From the NCBI RefSeq assembly GCF_000755245.1, contig NZ_BBMP01000027.1, positions 1 through 64,000 on the forward strand: a stretch of DNA of 64,000 bases, read 5' to 3'. The notes under the pieces were generated by a model. That model was not told the origin of the DNA. It saw only the letters and a program-made list of their open reading frames with translations, and searched no databases. Origin of the DNA: Halococcus sediminicola. GTDB lineage: Archaea > Halobacteriota > Halobacteria > Halobacteriales > Halococcaceae. The translations under genes were made by a program, and so were the position numbers. This document shows positions 5,177 through 15,649 of this stretch, in pieces (within the stretch, counting starts at the first letter, position 1; each line of letters opens with the position of its first letter).

Positions 5177-6004
5177 ATGACTACACGTTTCGTTCCGACC
5201 CATGTCCGGTCTGCAATAGACATCGTCGTGACTGATCGGGATCGTACGGTGAGCGAACGTAGAGCGTTTACGAGCTTTATCGACCGACTCTCGGATTTCT
5301 CGGTGGAGAGCATCGATTCGAATACGAGATTAGATTGCTCCACACCTGTCCAGACAGTACGTGAGCAGACCCGATCATTGCACTCGGAATCAGATCAACT
5401 CGCACGTGTGCGCGAGCTGTATCGGAAGACGGTCATGGGAGTCGAGCATTACCCTGAAGAGTACGGTGATTCGTTCGATGAGAGCATTGCCGAAGAGTTT
5501 GGATCCGAAACCGCTGCTGCAGCACTCAACAGTGACCAACTCACGCCACAACTCCGCGACCGACTCATCGAAGTCAGTAACCAAGCGCGCGAGAGTCGCC
5601 ACGCATTACTCCAGGGTCTCGAGAACGAGTATAACGCCCTCCAGAGTGCCGATGAAGCTCTCACCGAGTTAGGTGCTGATCTCGATGACGTACTTTCCAC
5701 ACACTCGTTCCAGACGTGGCCAGACGAAGAGCTTGCTACTGTCCGAAAAGATCTCCACGCACGAGAACGCGAATGCGACCGATTGGCTGCTGACCGTCAG
5801 ACCACCCTCCACAAACAGCGCGTCCCCAGTACTCATCACATCGACCTCGAATTCACGGAATATCTATATCGATCGCTGCCGGTGACCTATCCCGTATTGA
5901 CGGATATCGCCAGCCTCACCGAAACACTCCGTACCGCACGTCAGAACATTGATCACGCACTCGCTTCAGAAACGAATGCTTCCACTCACTCTTCAGCTAT
6001 CTGA
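5177..6004 (+). CDS. Haloarchaeal coiled-coil protein (DUF7260-like)
   Basis: 275-residue soluble acidic protein without signal peptide or membrane segments. Residues ~70-110 contain RVRELYRKTVMGVEHYPEEYGDSFDESIAEEFG, a pattern I associate with the halophile-specific DUF7260 family. Residues ~150-235 are rich in heptad-like Leu/Ala/Glu and probably form a coiled coil. Function is unknown. It stands alone between repeat copy A and the ISH3-type element. An AT-rich tcttatat-like stretch lies about 60 nt upstream of the ATG. Assignment to the DUF is from memory of motif shape only. Confidence 0.75.
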   Translation: MTTRFVPTHVRSAIDIVVTDRDRTVSERRAFTSFIDRLSDFSVESIDSNTRLDCSTPVQTVREQTRSLHSESDQLARVRELYRKTVMGVEHYPEEYGDSFDESIAEEFGSETAAAALNSDQLTPQLRDRLIEVSNQARESRHALLQGLENEYNALQSADEALTELGADLDDVLSTHSFQTWPDEELATVRKDLHARERECDRLAADRQTTLHKQRVPSTHHIDLEFTEYLYRSLPVTYPVLTDIASLTETLRTARQNIDHALASETNASTHSSAI

Positions 6005-6246: not shown

Positions 6247-7649
6247 CAGTACCTCACAAAGCACGTCAGTTGACTGCTTCTGAGACGTGAATTGGGTGGA
6301 GAAATCGGTACCGAGCAACTGCTGAGGAGAGTGGTTCGACACCGAGAGCATCGTACCTGTCGCAGTCGGCGGCGTTCCGCCGCCGACGCGACGGTGTTGC
6401 CACTCGCCAAGCGGGCGTTCCCGGTCGGTGGATTAGCGTCTGAAGCGGTCGTCTGGTGGCTTATTTGCGGGGACGGCGCGACGCACGGTGAGCGCCGTCT
6501 CCGCTGCTCGCCGTATCATCCCAAGGAACTCGTCGAATCGCCACGGCCAGAGGCGTCGCGCGCCTCGGCGCGGCGACGCCACGTACTCCCAGTGGAGATA
6601 CCGCCACGCATTCTGGAGAAGGAAGCTGATCAGCACGTATAGGAACCGCACCGCCGGATTCTGTGTCGTTGTCGACGCGATGCTTCGTTCAGAAAGACGG
6701 TAGGTCGATTCGATCCCGAAGCGTCGGCTGTAGTACTTCCGAGCCTGGTGTGGCGTCTCGATGAACGGCGCGTCGACGGCGTAGCCGTGACGCGCCACAC
6801 CTTCCTCGTCGTACTTTCCTCGCTGGTAGGTGCAGTCGATGTAGACCGGGAAATCGACGGTCCACGTGTGACCGTCGATTTTCCCTCGGAGATCGTGGTC
6901 GATCACGCGGCTCCAGCCCTGGCTCAGTTCGGTCTGGATCGCTTCACCCCACTTCACGATCGGCATGACGAAAGCGTAGTTATGGGCAGCGAGCAGCGTC
7001 AAACAGTACGTATCGTAGAATTCCCGATCGAGGTAGACGGCCTCGACCTTGAGGTCAAGGCCTTCGAGTACGCCGAGCAGTTCCGCGAGGATCGAGCTGG
7101 CGGTGTCGCCGTCGGTCAGACGGCGCACCGCCAGCGCGTAGCGTTTGTTGCGCACCCGCGCGTAGAGTGTGGCATAGCCGTGGAACGACGTTGTTCCGGC
7201 TTTAGCGAGTGATTTGTAGAGTTCCTCCTCGGAGTCGTACTCCTCGCCGTAGTACGGACGGAGGTGGAGGTCGTCGCCGACCTCCACCGGCCGATCTGGA
7301 AGCAGTTCGAGGATATCCTGTTGGATGAGCGTCTTGCCGACTCGTTCGAGCTCTCCGAGCTCGAACTTCGTCCGGAGGTGGTGAAGAATCGTGTTGCCGT
7401 GGGGTGATTCCTCTGAAATCTCGCAGAGGTGGCTGACCGAGTCCTCGTCGGCTGTTGCGCCGACGAGGACGTCCCAGATGTCTTCAGAGTCGATATCGGC
7501 GTTCTCGCCGAGTTCGATATCGATCTCCTCGTCGAGGGCATTGACGAGAAAGTTAAGCACCTGCTCTTCGGTGAGTTCATTGGCTGCTTGGTCCGGCTGC
7601 ATCAACCGACCAAGCAGCCCGTTCACCTAACCCGCTTTGTGAAGTACTG
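6247..7649 (-). mobile_element. ISH3-family insertion sequence, complete
   Basis: A 1403-bp element with terminal inverted repeats: CAGTACCTCACAAAGC at the 6247 end and CAGTACTTCACAAAGC read inward from 7649. It is flanked by a perfect 5-bp target duplication AGTTT (6242-6246 and 7650-7654). Size, 5-bp duplication and transposase type fit the archaeal ISH3 group. A deleted relative with the same ends is at 44023-44603. Confidence 0.93.
6433..7626 (-). CDS. ISH3-family transposase
   Basis: 397-residue transposase filling the element, full-length for the group. Typical segments are LNFLVNALDEEIDIELGENADI (N-terminal), DILELLPDRPVEVGDDLHLRPYYGEEY, YARVRNKRYALAVRRLTDGDTASSIL, VEAVYLDREFYDTYCLTLL (catalytic Asp region), FPVYIDCTYQRGKYDEEGVARHGYA and YSRRFGIESTYRLSE (catalytic Glu region). 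The C-terminus RRAVPANKPPDDRFRR is characteristic. The start could be the first Met or MQPDQAAN eight residues later. No frameshift, so it is probably active and could mobilise the internally deleted copy at 44 kb. Confidence 0.95.
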   Translation of the reverse strand: MNGLLGRLMQPDQAANELTEEQVLNFLVNALDEEIDIELGENADIDSEDIWDVLVGATADEDSVSHLCEISEESPHGNTILHHLRTKFELGELERVGKTLIQQDILELLPDRPVEVGDDLHLRPYYGEEYDSEEELYKSLAKAGTTSFHGYATLYARVRNKRYALAVRRLTDGDTASSILAELLGVLEGLDLKVEAVYLDREFYDTYCLTLLAAHNYAFVMPIVKWGEAIQTELSQGWSRVIDHDLRGKIDGHTWTVDFPVYIDCTYQRGKYDEEGVARHGYAVDAPFIETPHQARKYYSRRFGIESTYRLSERSIASTTTQNPAVRFLYVLISFLLQNAWRYLHWEYVASPRRGARRLWPWRFDEFLGMIRRAAETALTVRRAVPANKPPDDRFRR

Positions 7650-8396: not shown

Positions 8397-9262
8397 TCAG
8401 CAGTTTCTGAACCAGTCTTTAGCAGCATTCAACTGAAGATCGAGAAAGTCAAGGTAGCGCTGAAGATGGTGTTTTGAGACGTCTCGAAACCTCTCGAGCC
8501 ACTGCCGCACGAAGCCGTGGCGGTTCTCGCACATGTTCATGTGTATATCGCCGATCATGTATGTCTCAGACTGATTGACGGCTAAATGGCCGTCAATCGC
8601 GTCGAAATCGTCGATTTCGTTGTAGATTCTGTAGTCGTCGGTACATAGAATTACGTTCCTGTTGCCGCATTCGGCGATGTTTTCGTCGACACTCTGGAGA
8701 TTCTCCCGAACCAGAAACCGAACTTGGCCGTCGCTCCGACGGACAAGTGTCACGACCGGTGGTTTGTCTCGTTGAAAGGTTCCATATCCTTTTTTGAAAG
8801 CCCGCGTTCGCGCGGGCTTTCTTGCTCTATGCCTTTCTTGCCCGCAGTAACGTAGATTTTGTCGACTTCACAGACGTCGTTGAGCGTGAAGTCAGCGATG
8901 TCGTTGCAGCGGTCTTGAATCTCGTGGACGAAGTTGAGGATGGCTTCGTAGTCTCGGTCAAGGTCCCGAGCGATCTGTGCGGTCGGCACATATCGTATCT
9001 CCTTAAGCATGTAGAATAGCTCCCCGATAGGGAACTTGTGGTGTTCGAACAGGTCCCGGTGAGATCGTTGAAGTACGTCTCGCAGGTGTTGCAGTAGTAC
9101 TGCTGGGCGTCCTTCCCAGTGGTCCTTCCTTACTGACCTCGCCGCTTTCGCAATGGACGCAGGATACCGTCGCGCCCGATTTGGCGCGACGGAGCCGCTC
9201 GTAGCAGTCTTCCCGACCGGCAAGAAGACCGAAACCAACATACTGTCCATTACCGGCAGCAT
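8397..9262 (-). pseudogene. IS1595-family (ISXO2-like) transposase, frameshifted
   Basis: Two overlapping frames together spell one transposase. 9262-8750 holds the N-terminal part (HHKFPIGELFYMLKEIRYVPTAQIARDL, then VCEVDKIYVTAGKKG with the first Asp). 8753-8397 holds the rest (VILCTDDYRIYNEI, NQSETYMIGDIHMNMCENRHGFVRQWLERFRDVSKHHLQRYLDF). The order, the DDE layout and the H-x-N-x-CENRHGF block match the ISXO2-like domain of IS1595 elements. The N-terminal zinc-binding cysteines are in a further frame around 9120-9180. At least one frameshift, so inactive as written; clear terminal repeats were not found. Confidence 0.8.
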
Positions 9263-9361: not shown

Positions 9362-10921
9362 TTAATCGGGCTTACTGGGGTCATCCTCGGAATCCGGGAA
9401 CGAGGGCGTGATTGGCTGACCAATGTGGTTGCCGAATAACCAATCTGACCAGTCAAGTGTAAGTCCGCGCTGGTCGCGGTTTTGGAGTCGCCGGTTGCGC
9501 GTCTGGCTGTAGTTCAATAGCGCGACCAGTAGGACGCCACCGACGGTATTGCCGAGCGTCGCGGGTGCAAGGTAGTGAGTGAAAAATGCCCACAACGACT
9601 CCTCACCGCTAAACACCACGTACAACGTCTCCGCTGATCCAACAATGGAGTGAGACAGCTCCGCGGCCCCCACAGCGTAGGTGAGTATAAAGATCACCAG
9701 TACCCGAGCAGCCGTATCCCGTGCAGCGTGGATCAACCATACCATTCCGGCAATGAGCACGCCCGCAAATACGGCTTTCCAGAAGATATCCCACCACGAC
9801 AGCTCGAAGAAGTGACGTCCAATCTCTCCAGCGACGCTCGCTGCCGACGGCGAAAAGACGCCCGTGTTGGCCAACACGTACGCACTCAACGCCACCCCGA
9901 GGACATTCGCGGTGAATACGATACCCCACACACGGAGGAGTGCTGGAACAGATGCAACTCGGGTCATTACAAGTGTCACCGGCGTAATCGTGTTCTCGGT
10001 GAACAACTGGTAGCTTCCTAACACTACGAAGACGAACCCGAGCGGGTACAGGAGGTACCCCGCCGCCGAGGCGGATCCCCCATCGCCGGAGATCAATGCG
10101 GTCAGCGAGGCCGTGCCAACAAACGAGAGGCTCATCGCGAACCCGGCCGCGAGCCCACTCAAAAATAAAAGACGGTTGTTCTGGCTGAATTCATCGTGAG
10201 CGGTCGCCACGATCCGTTGGAAGATCTCGTCCGCCGAGAACCGATCGCGAACCGCCGATCCCGCCGCCGGCGCACCTCGCTCAGATTGATCCAACGTCTC
10301 GCGAAGGTCGTCTTGGGAAGGAGTGCGATCGCCGCTATTAGTCATTTTCGCGGGTGTATCGGAGAGTTGATCCGACTCCGTGAGTGCTCGGTGGAGTGCC
10401 TCAACCGTGTGTTGCCCCTCGTACCGTTCGCCATTGATGAATAACGCTGGTGCGCGATTCACTCCTCTATCGAGCCCTTCTTGGAAGTCCTCTCTGACAC
10501 GTTCTTCGTGCCGATGATCGTCAAGGTCTGCTGCGAACTGTTCAGTATCAAGCTCAAGCGCTTTTGCGTGTTCGGTCAGATCTGTCTCGCCAATTGCTCC
10601 CTGGTGCTCGTAGAGGCGGTCATACATTTCCCAGAACCTCTCCTGTGTGGCAGCAGCCTCGGCCGCCTCGGCAGCGTGCTTCGCGTTCGGATGCAGTTCG
10701 GTTAGCGGGAAATGCCGATACACATACTGGAGCTGCGACCCCAACTGTTCGCGTACTTCTTCAATCACGGTATAGATCTCGCCACACTCAGAAGAGCCGA
10801 AGTCGCCGTATAGGACGAGTGTGAGGCGAGCGTCATCTGGGCCGCGGACGTGGTCACGCTCGCGAATCAATCCGTCAGGGCGGTGTCCCGCAGCGGATGA
10901 ATCTGAGTATGGTTGGTTCAT
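9362..10921 (-). CDS. DsbA-like domain fused to a formate/nitrite transporter (FNT) channel
   Basis: 519 residues with two domains. Residues ~20-190 are DsbA/thioredoxin-fold: LTLVLYGDFGSSECGEIYTVIEEV, YRHFPLTELHPNAKHAAEAAEAA, RFWEMYDRLY, then VNRAPALFINGERYEG with the cis-Pro loop. The active-site position reads S-S-E-C instead of C-x-x-C, so the nucleophilic first Cys is replaced by Ser. After a linker (~190-240), residues ~245-480 form six hydrophobic segments of FNT type (FLSGLAAGFAMSLSFVGTA, GFVFVVLGSYQLFTENTITPV, LAPATLGNTVGGVLLVALL). FNT proteins are pentameric channels for small anions such as formate, nitrite or hydrosulfide (family knowledge). The thioredoxin part may bind rather than catalyse. 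No signal peptide is visible, so it probably lies on the cytoplasmic side. A single-gene unit. Confidence 0.88.
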   Translation of the reverse strand: MNQPYSDSSAAGHRPDGLIRERDHVRGPDDARLTLVLYGDFGSSECGEIYTVIEEVREQLGSQLQYVYRHFPLTELHPNAKHAAEAAEAAATQERFWEMYDRLYEHQGAIGETDLTEHAKALELDTEQFAADLDDHRHEERVREDFQEGLDRGVNRAPALFINGERYEGQHTVEALHRALTESDQLSDTPAKMTNSGDRTPSQDDLRETLDQSERGAPAAGSAVRDRFSADEIFQRIVATAHDEFSQNNRLLFLSGLAAGFAMSLSFVGTASLTALISGDGGSASAAGYLLYPLGFVFVVLGSYQLFTENTITPVTLVMTRVASVPALLRVWGIVFTANVLGVALSAYVLANTGVFSPSAASVAGEIGRHFFELSWWDIFWKAVFAGVLIAGMVWLIHAARDTAARVLVIFILTYAVGAAELSHSIVGSAETLYVVFSGEESLWAFFTHYLAPATLGNTVGGVLLVALLNYSQTRNRRLQNRDQRGLTLDWSDWLFGNHIGQPITPSFPDSEDDPSKPD

Positions 10922-11703: not shown

Positions 11704-12138
11704 TTATCGCACAATGGTGACTGGAACTGGTGAGCGACGAGCAACTTTTTCTGCAACACTTCCAAGAAGGATACGGCTCACACCGGAGCGACCGTGACTT
11801 CCAATGATGATATGGTCAATCTCGTGTTTCTCAGCGAATTCAACGATAGCGCGGTTTGTATCTCCAGTTTGGAATTCGGTAGAGACGGGAACATCGTTCT
11901 CGTCGGCTTGCTCTTTCGCCTCAGCCAACAGTTGTTCAGCTTGCTCCTGTCTCTGTGAGTGAACCTCCTTATAATTGGCTACTCTACCTCCATCCATTCC
12001 CACGTAGGGTGTCATATCTGTTGGATTGATGACGTGAAAAATTATGATTTCTTCCCCCGAATGGTGAGTTAACGTATATTTCAAGGCATTACTTGCTTGC
12101 TCAGAGCCATCAATCGGGACAAGAATATGTTGATCCAT
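11704..12138 (-). CDS. Universal stress protein, UspA family
   Basis: 144 residues from MDQHILVPIDGSEQASNALKYTL; the frame also contains an ATG two codons earlier. It has the standard single Usp domain: beta1 HILVPIDGSE, and the C-terminal nucleotide-binding motif GSHGRSGVSRILLGSVAEKVARRSPVPVTIV, the G-2x-G-9x-G-S type that binds ATP. Haloarchaea carry many Usp paralogues of mostly unknown partner (family knowledge). It opens the stress-related block that continues to about 24.3 kb. Confidence 0.95.
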   Translation of the reverse strand: MDQHILVPIDGSEQASNALKYTLTHHSGEEIIIFHVINPTDMTPYVGMDGGRVANYKEVHSQRQEQAEQLLAEAKEQADENDVPVSTEFQTGDTNRAIVEFAEKHEIDHIIIGSHGRSGVSRILLGSVAEKVARRSPVPVTIVR

Positions 12139-12193
12139 ATTCACAATATTATAACGCGTATTCGTAAATGCATTCTGCTACACCAATTTGCGG

Positions 12194-13354: not shown

Positions 13355-13378
13355 TCTACTACTTGTCCGTGGTAATTG

Positions 13379-15649
13379 ATGTCAAACAACGGGAGCGACA
13401 CCACTGATGGCGAGGGAATCGGCGAAGAAACCACTAAACATAAAGAAAATGCCGAGGACGCCGGAGAGATAGCAGAGAACGAGGATCTACATGGAACCAC
13501 CGATGAGGCCCGTGATCATCTCGACGAGGGAAGTAAACAGGAACAGATCGACGAAGTACGCGAGGACCACGCTGGCGAACACCTGACGACCGACCAAGGG
13601 GTGCGCGTCAACCATACGGACGACTCGCTCAAAGCCGGCGAGCGTGGGCCGACCCTGATGGAGGACTTCCATTTCAGGGAGAAGATGACCCAGTTCGACC
13701 ACGAGTCTATCCCCGAACGCGTAGTCCACGCTCGCGGAACGGGTGCGCATGGCTATTACCAACCCTACGAGGACCCGGATCTCGGGGAATATGACGACGT
13801 CTCGGAGCTCACGAAAGCGGAGTTCCTCACCGATCCTGATCAGAAAACGCCCGTCTTCACCCGGTTTTCGACGGTTGTGGGATCGAGAGGATCGAGTGAC
13901 ACTGTACGAGACGTTCGTGGCTTTGCTACCAAATTCTACACGAAAGAGGGGAACTACGACCTCGTGGGGAACAATATGCCGATCTTCTTCATCCACGACG
14001 CGATCAAGTTCCCCGATCTGGTCCACGCGGTCAAGCCTGAACCTGACGACGAGACACCACAGGCGGCGACGGCCCATGACACGTTCTGGGATTTCGCCTC
14101 ACTCACGCCTGAAATCACCCATATGCTGATGTGGGTGCTCTCGGATCGCGCCCTGCCTCGCGCCTATCGTATGATGCAAGGCTTCGGCGTCCACACGTTC
14201 CGCTTTGTCAACGACGAGGGCAAGTCGCGGTTCGTGAAGTTCCACTGGCTTCCCAAATACGGTACCCATTCGTTACTATGGGATGAGACGGCGAAACTGT
14301 GGGGGAAAGCGTCCGATTACAACCGCAACGCCCTCGGAAATGCAATCAAGAGCGGAAACTATCCCGAGTGGGAACTCGGGGTGCAGATCGTCGAGGAAGA
14401 GGATGCCGACCAGTTCGACTTCGATCTGCTCGACCCGACAAAGATCATCCCCGAAGAGGACGTACCCGTCCGGCGCATCGGGAAGATGGTTCTCAACGAA
14501 ACCGTCGACAACTTCTTCGCCGAAACCGAACAGGTGGCGTTCCACCCCGGCAACGTCGTCCCAGGTATCGACTTCACGAACGACCCCCTGCTACAGGGCC
14601 GGATGTTCTCCTACCAGGATACACAGTTGAACCGCTTTGGCGGCGCAAACTGGGACGAGCTCCCAATCAATCGGCCTCTCGCAAAACGCCACAATAACCA
14701 ACGCGCCGGATTCATGCGCCAAACGGTGAACAAAGGAAAGACCTCGTACTCCCCAAACTCGCTGGAGAGTGATTATCCGAGAGAAGCCACTGAAGAAGAG
14801 GGAGCCTACACACATCACGCTGAAAAGGTTGAGGGGAAGAAAGTCCGCGAGCGAAGCGAGAGCTTCCGGAACCACTTCAGTCAGGCAAAGCTGTTCTGGA
14901 ACAGCATGTCAGACGTGGAGAAAGAGCACATCATCGACGCAACCCACTTCGAGTTGGGCAGCGTTGAGAGTAAAGAAGTCCGCGAACGCATTGTGTACGA
15001 GATCTTCAACAATGTTGATCACGAGTTTGCCGTGCGAGCGGCCGAAGGGATAGGGGTCGAACCGCCCGACGAACCCGGGCCACACCACCAAGACCACGAC
15101 AAGACCTCACCCGCGCTGAGCCAAGAGAACACTGTCAAAGACACTATCGAATCGCGCCAGATTGCCGTCCTTGTCGAGGATGGTTTCGACGACGAACACG
15201 TCGAAGAGATAACGTCGGGACTCGAAACGCAGGACGCACAGGTCACGGTCGTCTCGAAGGTACTCGGCGAGAAAACAGGTGAAAATGGCGAGAAAGTAAT
15301 GGCCGACGAGAGTCACGTCACGACCGATTCCATCGAGTACGATGCGGTCTTCGTTCCAGGCGGCAGCGAGAGCGTCGATACCCTGAAAGAGCAGGGCAAT
15401 GCCAAACACTTCGTGATGGAAGCGTTCAAGCACAAGAAACCAATCGCTGCGCTTGGTGATAGTATTGAGATGTTCGACGAAGTGGGCCTGTCGGACGTCG
15501 ATGTTTCGGATGATGAAGATATCGTTTCGGAGGACGGTATTGTGACGAGCCACGATAGCAACGATCTGGACGCGTTCGTAGACACCTTCAGCGATGCCAT
15601 CGCGGAACACCGCCACTGGGATCGTGACGAGAAGGAGATTCCTGCGTAG
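13379..15649 (+). CDS. katE: Catalase HPII type (large-subunit, DJ-1/PfpI tail)
   Basis: Decomposes hydrogen peroxide. The 756 residues are the length of large-subunit catalases. A ~100-residue acidic N-terminal extension is followed by the haem catalase core: distal His117 in [65 protein letters not shown], and the proximal haem ligand Tyr412 in [14 protein letters not shown]. An immune-responsive/helical region ends ~575. Residues ~590-750 are a DJ-1/PfpI-type domain ([36 protein letters not shown]) without the nucleophilic Cys, as in E. coli HPII. The ATG at 13379 is preferred over the TTG just before it. Single-gene transcription unit. Confidence 0.96.

Follow-up and report, generated by a model that had tools for sequence, protein, structure and literature searches.

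A DsbA-like domain with a degenerate active site fused in one frame to a predicted YfdC-type FNT channel in Halococcus sediminicola

Introduction

What does a thioredoxin-fold domain do in front of a membrane channel once its first active-site cysteine is gone? The question is raised by a gene in a 64,000-nucleotide stretch of Halococcus sediminicola DNA (the window). A sequence-only reading of the locus took the product for a DsbA-fold domain ahead of an FNT anion channel for formate, nitrite or hydrosulfide. It proposed that the domain is a binding or gating module, perhaps sensing redox or sulfide, rather than an oxidase, and that other such fusions be sought and their CxxC positions compared. 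Here the gene was compared with its relatives by profiles, structure prediction, phylogenetics, codon models and gene neighbourhood.

Gene structure and predicted fold

The interval 9362-10921 on the minus strand is a single open reading frame of 519 aa with two domains and no internal stop, and the stop-to-stop frame is 522 aa, 3 codons beyond the ATG start (Table 1). Pfam matches were above cut-off for both parts, with Thioredoxin_4 at residues 22-180 (72.2 bits, cut-off 23.2) and Form_Nir_trans at residues 232-471 (167.1 bits, cut-off 34.6, profile positions 1-239 of 240). The AlphaFold2 model, a monomer built from an alignment of 46 sequences, had a mean pLDDT of 84.5; both folds were predicted, and the linker was poorly ordered at 189-220. 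In structural comparisons, the N-terminal part matched 3gyk and BdbD (3eu3) as a thioredoxin fold with the DsbA-type helical insertion. The FNT part matched HSC, LciA and FocA (Z about 31), with an rmsd of 1.8-2.1 over 246-249 residues for HSC and LciA. The gene is a DsbA-like domain and a complete FNT channel in one frame, as originally read. Two separate genes or a frameshift artefact were discarded as explanations, as the same one-frame fusion is found in 23 other intact genes, and the window active site differs from its relatives at several codons without any indel.

Table 1. Features of the fusion gene and its product in the window.
Feature	Position	Strand	Details
dsbA-fnt fusion gene	9362..10921	-	519 aa, ATG start, stop 9362-9364
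DsbA-like (Thioredoxin_4) domain	10376..10858	-	Residues 22-182; Pfam; AlphaFold2 pLDDT about 93-98; Z 22.7 to 3gyk and BdbD
Degenerate active site S43-S44-E45-C46, in place of CPxC	10784..10795	-	Alignment of relatives
Cis-proline loop A157-P158-A159	10445..10453	-	Pro kept, next Thr to Ala; cis position assumed by homology
Linker, residues 183-225	10247..10375	-	Mostly low confidence, pLDDT <50 at 189-220
FNT channel domain, residues 226-478	9488..10246	-	Pfam; alignment to 3kly and 3tds
Cytoplasmic C-tail, residues 470-519	9365..9514	-	Gln484 where close relatives have the RDC cysteine

Active site of the DsbA-like domain

Residues 38-47 read Y-G-D-F-G-S-S-E-C-G. The C-P-x-C of the relatives aligned to S-S-E-C without a gap, which upholds the reported replacement of the first cysteine by serine and adds the loss of the proline beside it. 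Cys46 is the sole cysteine in the entire protein, and the proline ahead of the third strand of the thioredoxin fold is present (P158). With SSEC in place of the CxxC of DsbA-like Thioredoxin_4 proteins, the module can no longer act as a dithiol oxidoreductase, and its family membership is one of fold and sequence only.

The comparison covered 53 DsbA columns that show conservation across at least 95% of 22 other N-terminal fusions. The window protein keeps 47 of these and alters 6 (C43S, P44S, T159A, L110I, E132D, S152R), and 3 of the 6 changes sit within 5 active-site columns (hypergeometric P 0.008). Because the same leave-one-out count gave 5 altered columns for L017 and 4 for L076, the number of changes is unexceptional; their position is exceptional. 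In the channel part, residues 425 and 430 (beside the central His and five on) are Ser and Ala, where many relatives have Cys.

Occurrence of DsbA-FNT fusions

One genome per species was scanned with six peptide patterns, and open reading frames and profiles were then applied to the 69 loci with a relative. These comprised 13 intact N-terminal DsbA-FNT fusions, 5 genes in the reverse order, 48 loci without a DsbA domain in the FNT frame, and three incomplete loci: L014 split by an in-frame stop, L035 frameshifted and L012 cut by a contig end. After repeats of loci already counted were dropped, ten further distinct intact fusions (L076, L077, L095, L097, L098, L101, L103, L104, L105, L107) brought the total to 23 besides the window; one of the 23, L017, lies in a bin that carries the label Thermoplasmatales, possibly through misbinning. 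The class survey (391 genomes) and a survey of the Bacteroidota-type phylum (394 genomes) used strict E limits at which diverged fusions would be missed. At E<=1e-105, 18 genomes of the class passed, 16 with the fusion (window included) and two with the FNT alone (G005 and G007). Of 1325 plasmid records with a match, 8 span 80% or more of the window protein.

The search thus revealed a recurring family. CxxC is present in 25/25 other N-terminal fusions with a readable motif (the 23 intact genes, L014 and L035), always as CPxC except for CLSC in L020, and loss of the first cysteine appears peculiar to the window gene among N-terminal fusions. Two sister genes of the same genus (L080 and L081), with FNT parts 74-77% identical to that of the window, have no DsbA domain, so the module is dispensable in the window lineage.

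Some copies are disrupted or shortened in annotation. In Natrialba aegyptia (L014, the same gene as L108) the stop at 6523-6525 divides an otherwise normal fusion, as a pseudogene or a natural fission. The fused gene of Halobacteriales archaeon QS_8_65_32 (L035:3172-4575) is disrupted by frameshifts. In Halocatena salina (NZ_CP096020.1, L128:4959-6470) DsbA and FNT are in frame, and the annotated start at 5523 omits the DsbA domain.

In Rhodothermota/Balneolota bacteria the order is reversed, FNT then DsbA. At E<=1e-100, 7 genomes of the phylum survey passed, 6 with the reverse fusion and one (L118) with the FNT alone, and nine distinct reverse-order genes were collected in all (L022-L025, L029, L109, L114-L116). 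All nine carry CxxS, as CPTS (7), CVTS (1) or CETS (1), and all nine lack the cis-proline, with TSN, SSN, TNN or TAN at its position. Taken with SxxC in the window, this means that DsbA domains linked to FNT have lost their dithiol by two distinct routes. Since a stand-alone relative in a Balneolaceae genome (L121) reads CPYS with the proline kept, the second cysteine may have gone before fusion in the bacterial line. Four FNTs without DsbA (L027, L032, L050, L118) have C-tails with some resemblance to the linker of reverse-order fusions (e.g. LLDQPV); these tails may be what is left of a domain since lost.

The sequence-only reading named no earlier description of the fusion, and no published description of DsbA-FNT fusions was found in a literature search that was itself weak and gave nothing useful on NhaA-thioredoxin fusions. 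The words 'formate' and 'DsbA' do not occur in the main text of a paper on archaeal fusions (PMC11237513).

Phylogeny of the two halves

Four clades with N-terminal fusions were distinguished: N1, the window clade (window, L076, L077, L080, L081, L007, L017); N2 (Natrinema, Natrialba and others); N3 (Haladaptatus, Halocatena, Natrialba and others); and N4 (Halocatena). In the FNT tree, N1 groups with Rhodothermota/Balneolota channels (100/97), apart from the N2, N3 and N4 fusions. AU tests on this tree rejected N1+N2+N3 as a single clade (p-AU 0.014), N2+N3+N4 as a single clade (1.9e-65) and N1 with the reverse fusions (4e-5), and did not reject N2+N3 as one clade (0.19); the groups were named after a quick first tree, which makes these p-values optimistic. 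In the DsbA tree, the window domain falls among the DsbA domains of its FNT sisters (100/99), and this group is placed nearer N3 (93/83); the reverse-order domains are all gathered in a single clade (100/98). The trees indicate several fusion origins, or FNT halves swapped behind an N-terminal DsbA; either way the pairing recurs, at either end of the channel.

The idea that the window FNT received its DsbA domain from a foreign source was considered and found unsupported, given the grouping of the window domain with that of its FNT sisters. Four-fold sites differing from L076 numbered 33/47 in DsbA vs 63/132 in FNT (Fisher 0.010), and with this unequal synonymous distance between its halves the window gene may possibly be a mosaic.

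Selection on the window domain

In a five-taxon codon model of the DsbA part, omega was 0.017 on the window branch if free and 0.039 if shared, and an omega of 1 on that branch was rejected (2dlnL 29.05); dS is saturated, and the model averages a long branch before and after the loss of the cysteine, so that these values do not amount to proof of selection after the loss. A relaxed-selection test by NG86 dN/dS was dropped, as dS was too saturated, in favour of the codon branch model, which shares the problem in part. Window branch lengths were 0.44-0.46 for DsbA vs 0.09-0.14 for FNT. The window domain is read as one with its fold retained and its catalysis lost, with decay as the main rival.

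Pore signature and substrate

Pore positions were assigned by an alignment to 3kly and 3tds, with residue numbers counted by hand along the protein, and the signature was taken from PMC5525234. The pore residues of the window FNT are Y292, L306-F307-T308, G387, V417, H424 and V427; they include the central His (H424) and the omega-loop LFT (L306-F307-T308) of FNT channels. According to the part of PMC5525234 available to us, YfdC channels have Gly for Asn172, an aliphatic residue for Phe202, Val for Ala212 and a small residue for Glu208, and YfdC-alpha is the largest FNT cluster, its function left unassigned. The window protein has G387, V417, V427 and S423 at these four positions, respectively, and by this signature is predicted to be an uncharacterised YfdC-type channel.

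Fold and profile bear out the FNT assignment of the sequence-only reading; the formate, nitrite or hydrosulfide that it named are guesses because the pore signature is of the YfdC type. The transported species is probably a small monovalent anion. Gene neighbourhood gave little guidance, with no neighbour family common to most of the 24 loci compared. Formamidase genes adjoin one fused gene in Halocatena salina, a single case that hints at formate.

Topology and gene neighbourhood

The N- and C-termini of FocA are both cytoplasmic, according to the part of PMC5572259 at hand. Residues 1-60 of the window protein, by reading, hold no hydrophobic stretch ahead of the DsbA domain, and Lys/Arg number 5 in the C-tail and 0, 1 and 0 in the three external loops. 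By this reading and FNT topology, the protein would have no signal peptide or anchor that places the domain outside as in a secreted DsbA. The domain is expected to lie in the cytoplasm at the inner mouth of the channel, unlike the extracytoplasmic classical DsbA. Because both FNT ends are cytoplasmic, N- or C-terminal fusion would place the domain inside alike, which would explain why domain order is of no consequence. Other haloarchaeal FNTs carry Usp repeats at the C-terminus (L034), in keeping with the same rule.

Redoxin genes adjoin 5/9 genes of clade N3 (L019, L020, L021, L101, L105). None was found beside fusions of the other clades, where some flanks were only about 1.5 kb, and the window held no match to the N3-clade redoxin. 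Redoxins also adjoin stand-alone DsbA relatives, two of them with Dps, or USP and DegQ, as well; another such relative sits in a GroEL-Hsp20-DnaK cluster. Judging by these neighbours, the window domain probably belongs to a stress-linked DsbA subfamily. A thioredoxin occurs in a transmissible stress-tolerance locus (PMC8290217, in the part available). In distant species (Halocatena, Bosea, Azospirillum; L133, L134, L135) a redoxin is directly followed by a DsbA family gene, a recurring pair.

The nearest same-strand neighbour of the window gene is a Usp gene at 11704-12144, about 780 bp upstream, and a large catalase lies nearby upstream at 13376-15649. The frame at 12194-12742 matches lactonase models over their C-terminal part alone, with scores under the cut-offs, and is likely a truncated metallo-hydrolase. 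An IS1595-type transposase fragment (8397-9262) lies immediately downstream of the fusion gene, and an ISH3 transposase above its cut-off at 6433-7626.

Discussion

We propose a YfdC-type anion channel in which every protomer bears, at its inner mouth, a cytoplasmic module of thioredoxin fold. In most haloarchaeal relatives the module keeps a dithiol that probably trades electrons with a redoxin or some other thiol partner in the cytoplasm, and this exchange would tie the activity or location of the channel to oxidative stress. In the window protein, with the nucleophilic cysteine and neighbouring active-site residues gone and the fold kept, the module would most likely act by binding, either as a docking site for a partner or by steering the pore at its mobile cytoplasmic face. 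Relatives with CxxC could signal through their thiol state; for the window protein the candidates are limited to binding and the single Cys46. That the module is redox-active in most relatives, and in the window a dead but retained docking or gating module, is a reading to which we give about an even chance. The N-terminus of FocA is the docking site of the cytosolic protein PflB, and its N-terminal helix is able to reshape the pore or to block it (PMC12559229); a domain joined at that point could therefore gate the channel or couple it. The interpretation first suggested was kept in part: the dithiol chemistry is lost, and the serine is not family-wide. A non-catalytic role gains plausibility from the nine reverse-order fusions, all of which lost the second cysteine and the cis-proline. 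Channel cysteines, or the RDC cysteine of the C-tail, were dropped as partners of the DsbA dithiol for want of consistent co-occurrence; the RDC cysteine is also found in FNTs without DsbA and in CxxS fusions, and is absent from clades N2-N4.

The main rival holds that the module is jobless in the window lineage and en route to loss, with S-S-E-C as an early decay step and the channel working alone. It would fit the two same-genus orthologous FNTs without the domain, the faster evolution of the window DsbA than of its FNT, the disappearance of every other cysteine and the position of the gene among transposase remnants. Against these stand the intact frame, the rejection of an omega of 1, the fold predicted at high confidence, and 47/53 conserved columns kept with losses enriched at the active site. 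A redox-dead version is, moreover, stably kept in 9/9 reverse-order fusions, and we consider decay unlikely, if a serious contender.

The module may instead be a fused redox enzyme throughout the family, e.g. a redoxin reductant, with the channel as a mere membrane anchor and the window copy a nonfunctional allele. CxxC in every other readable N-terminal fusion and the redoxin genes beside one clade and beside stand-alone relatives speak for this. However, the pore residues are conserved, central His included, fusion has repeatedly involved a channel or antiporter (FNT, NhaA), where a mere anchor would call for neither, and the redoxin association was confined to that clade among the fusions (some flanks only 1.5 kb); we regard it as improbable. 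A protein with one cysteine only cannot sense redox state or sulfide through a dithiol. A single-thiol version, in which Cys46 is linked to a partner or to sulfide as a mixed disulfide or persulfide, would accord with the survival of Cys46 while all other cysteines were lost, and with the one motif cysteine likewise kept in reverse-order fusions. The cysteine kept is, however, the second of the motif. In thioredoxin-fold motifs the second cysteine is buried and a poor nucleophile. The reverse-order fusions keep the other one, which leaves no common single-thiol mechanism, and we hold this version to be quite improbable.

Alongside the docking or gating module that we favour for the window, a broader history is offered tentatively. 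Among halophiles, both archaeal and bacterial, FNT channels would several times have gained a thioredoxin-fold module at one end or the other, to serve in the cytoplasm as a subunit for regulation or docking. Its thiol chemistry would have been discarded independently in the window lineage (first cysteine) and in all sampled bacterial fusions (second cysteine and cis-proline), turning a redox enzyme into a non-enzymatic channel regulator. The recurrent fusion to a stress-linked thioredoxin-fold domain is a first handle on YfdC-type channels, and the natural variants among relatives (CxxC, SxxC, CxxS, no domain) make redox gating of FNT directly testable.

Comparison with known systems

YfdC-alpha/beta channels (PMC5525234) share with the window protein the FNT fold, the central His and the Gly/Val/hydrophobic/small pore substitutions. 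Their N-terminal segments, as given in the part of that paper available, are 42-55 residues long, vs about 220 residues with a folded domain before TM1 in the window protein; the words 'thioredoxin' and 'fused' do not occur in that part. FocA with PflB (PMC12559229, likewise in part) offers a cytosolic protein at the FNT N-terminus that is coupled to flux, as proposed for the window module, but PflB is a separate protein and an unrelated enzyme with no thioredoxin fold.

Stand-alone DsbA family proteins share the domain family of the window protein and show DHxxGPxDA, CPYC and GTPTFFING-like motifs; unlike the window protein they are unfused and have an intact active site. NhaA antiporters with a C-terminal Thioredoxin_4-like domain (Streptomyces, Stutzerimonas plasmids) also join the same DsbA subfamily to a transporter, and their domains reach up to 51% identity to the DsbA domain of the close relative L076. 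They differ from the window in the transporter, in the C-terminal position of the domain and in the motif, which was CPYC in 3/4 examined and CAYC in 1/4.

Haloarchaeal FNTs with C-terminal Usp repeats were seen at L034:5929-7866 and in similar long frames (L039, L041), with Pfam run on L034 only; nine long-tailed FNTs form one clade in a quick FNT tree, and a literature search for FNT-Usp fusions found no paper. L034, too, combines an FNT with a cytoplasmic stress-type domain, and differs from the window protein in carrying Usp rather than DsbA, at the opposite end.
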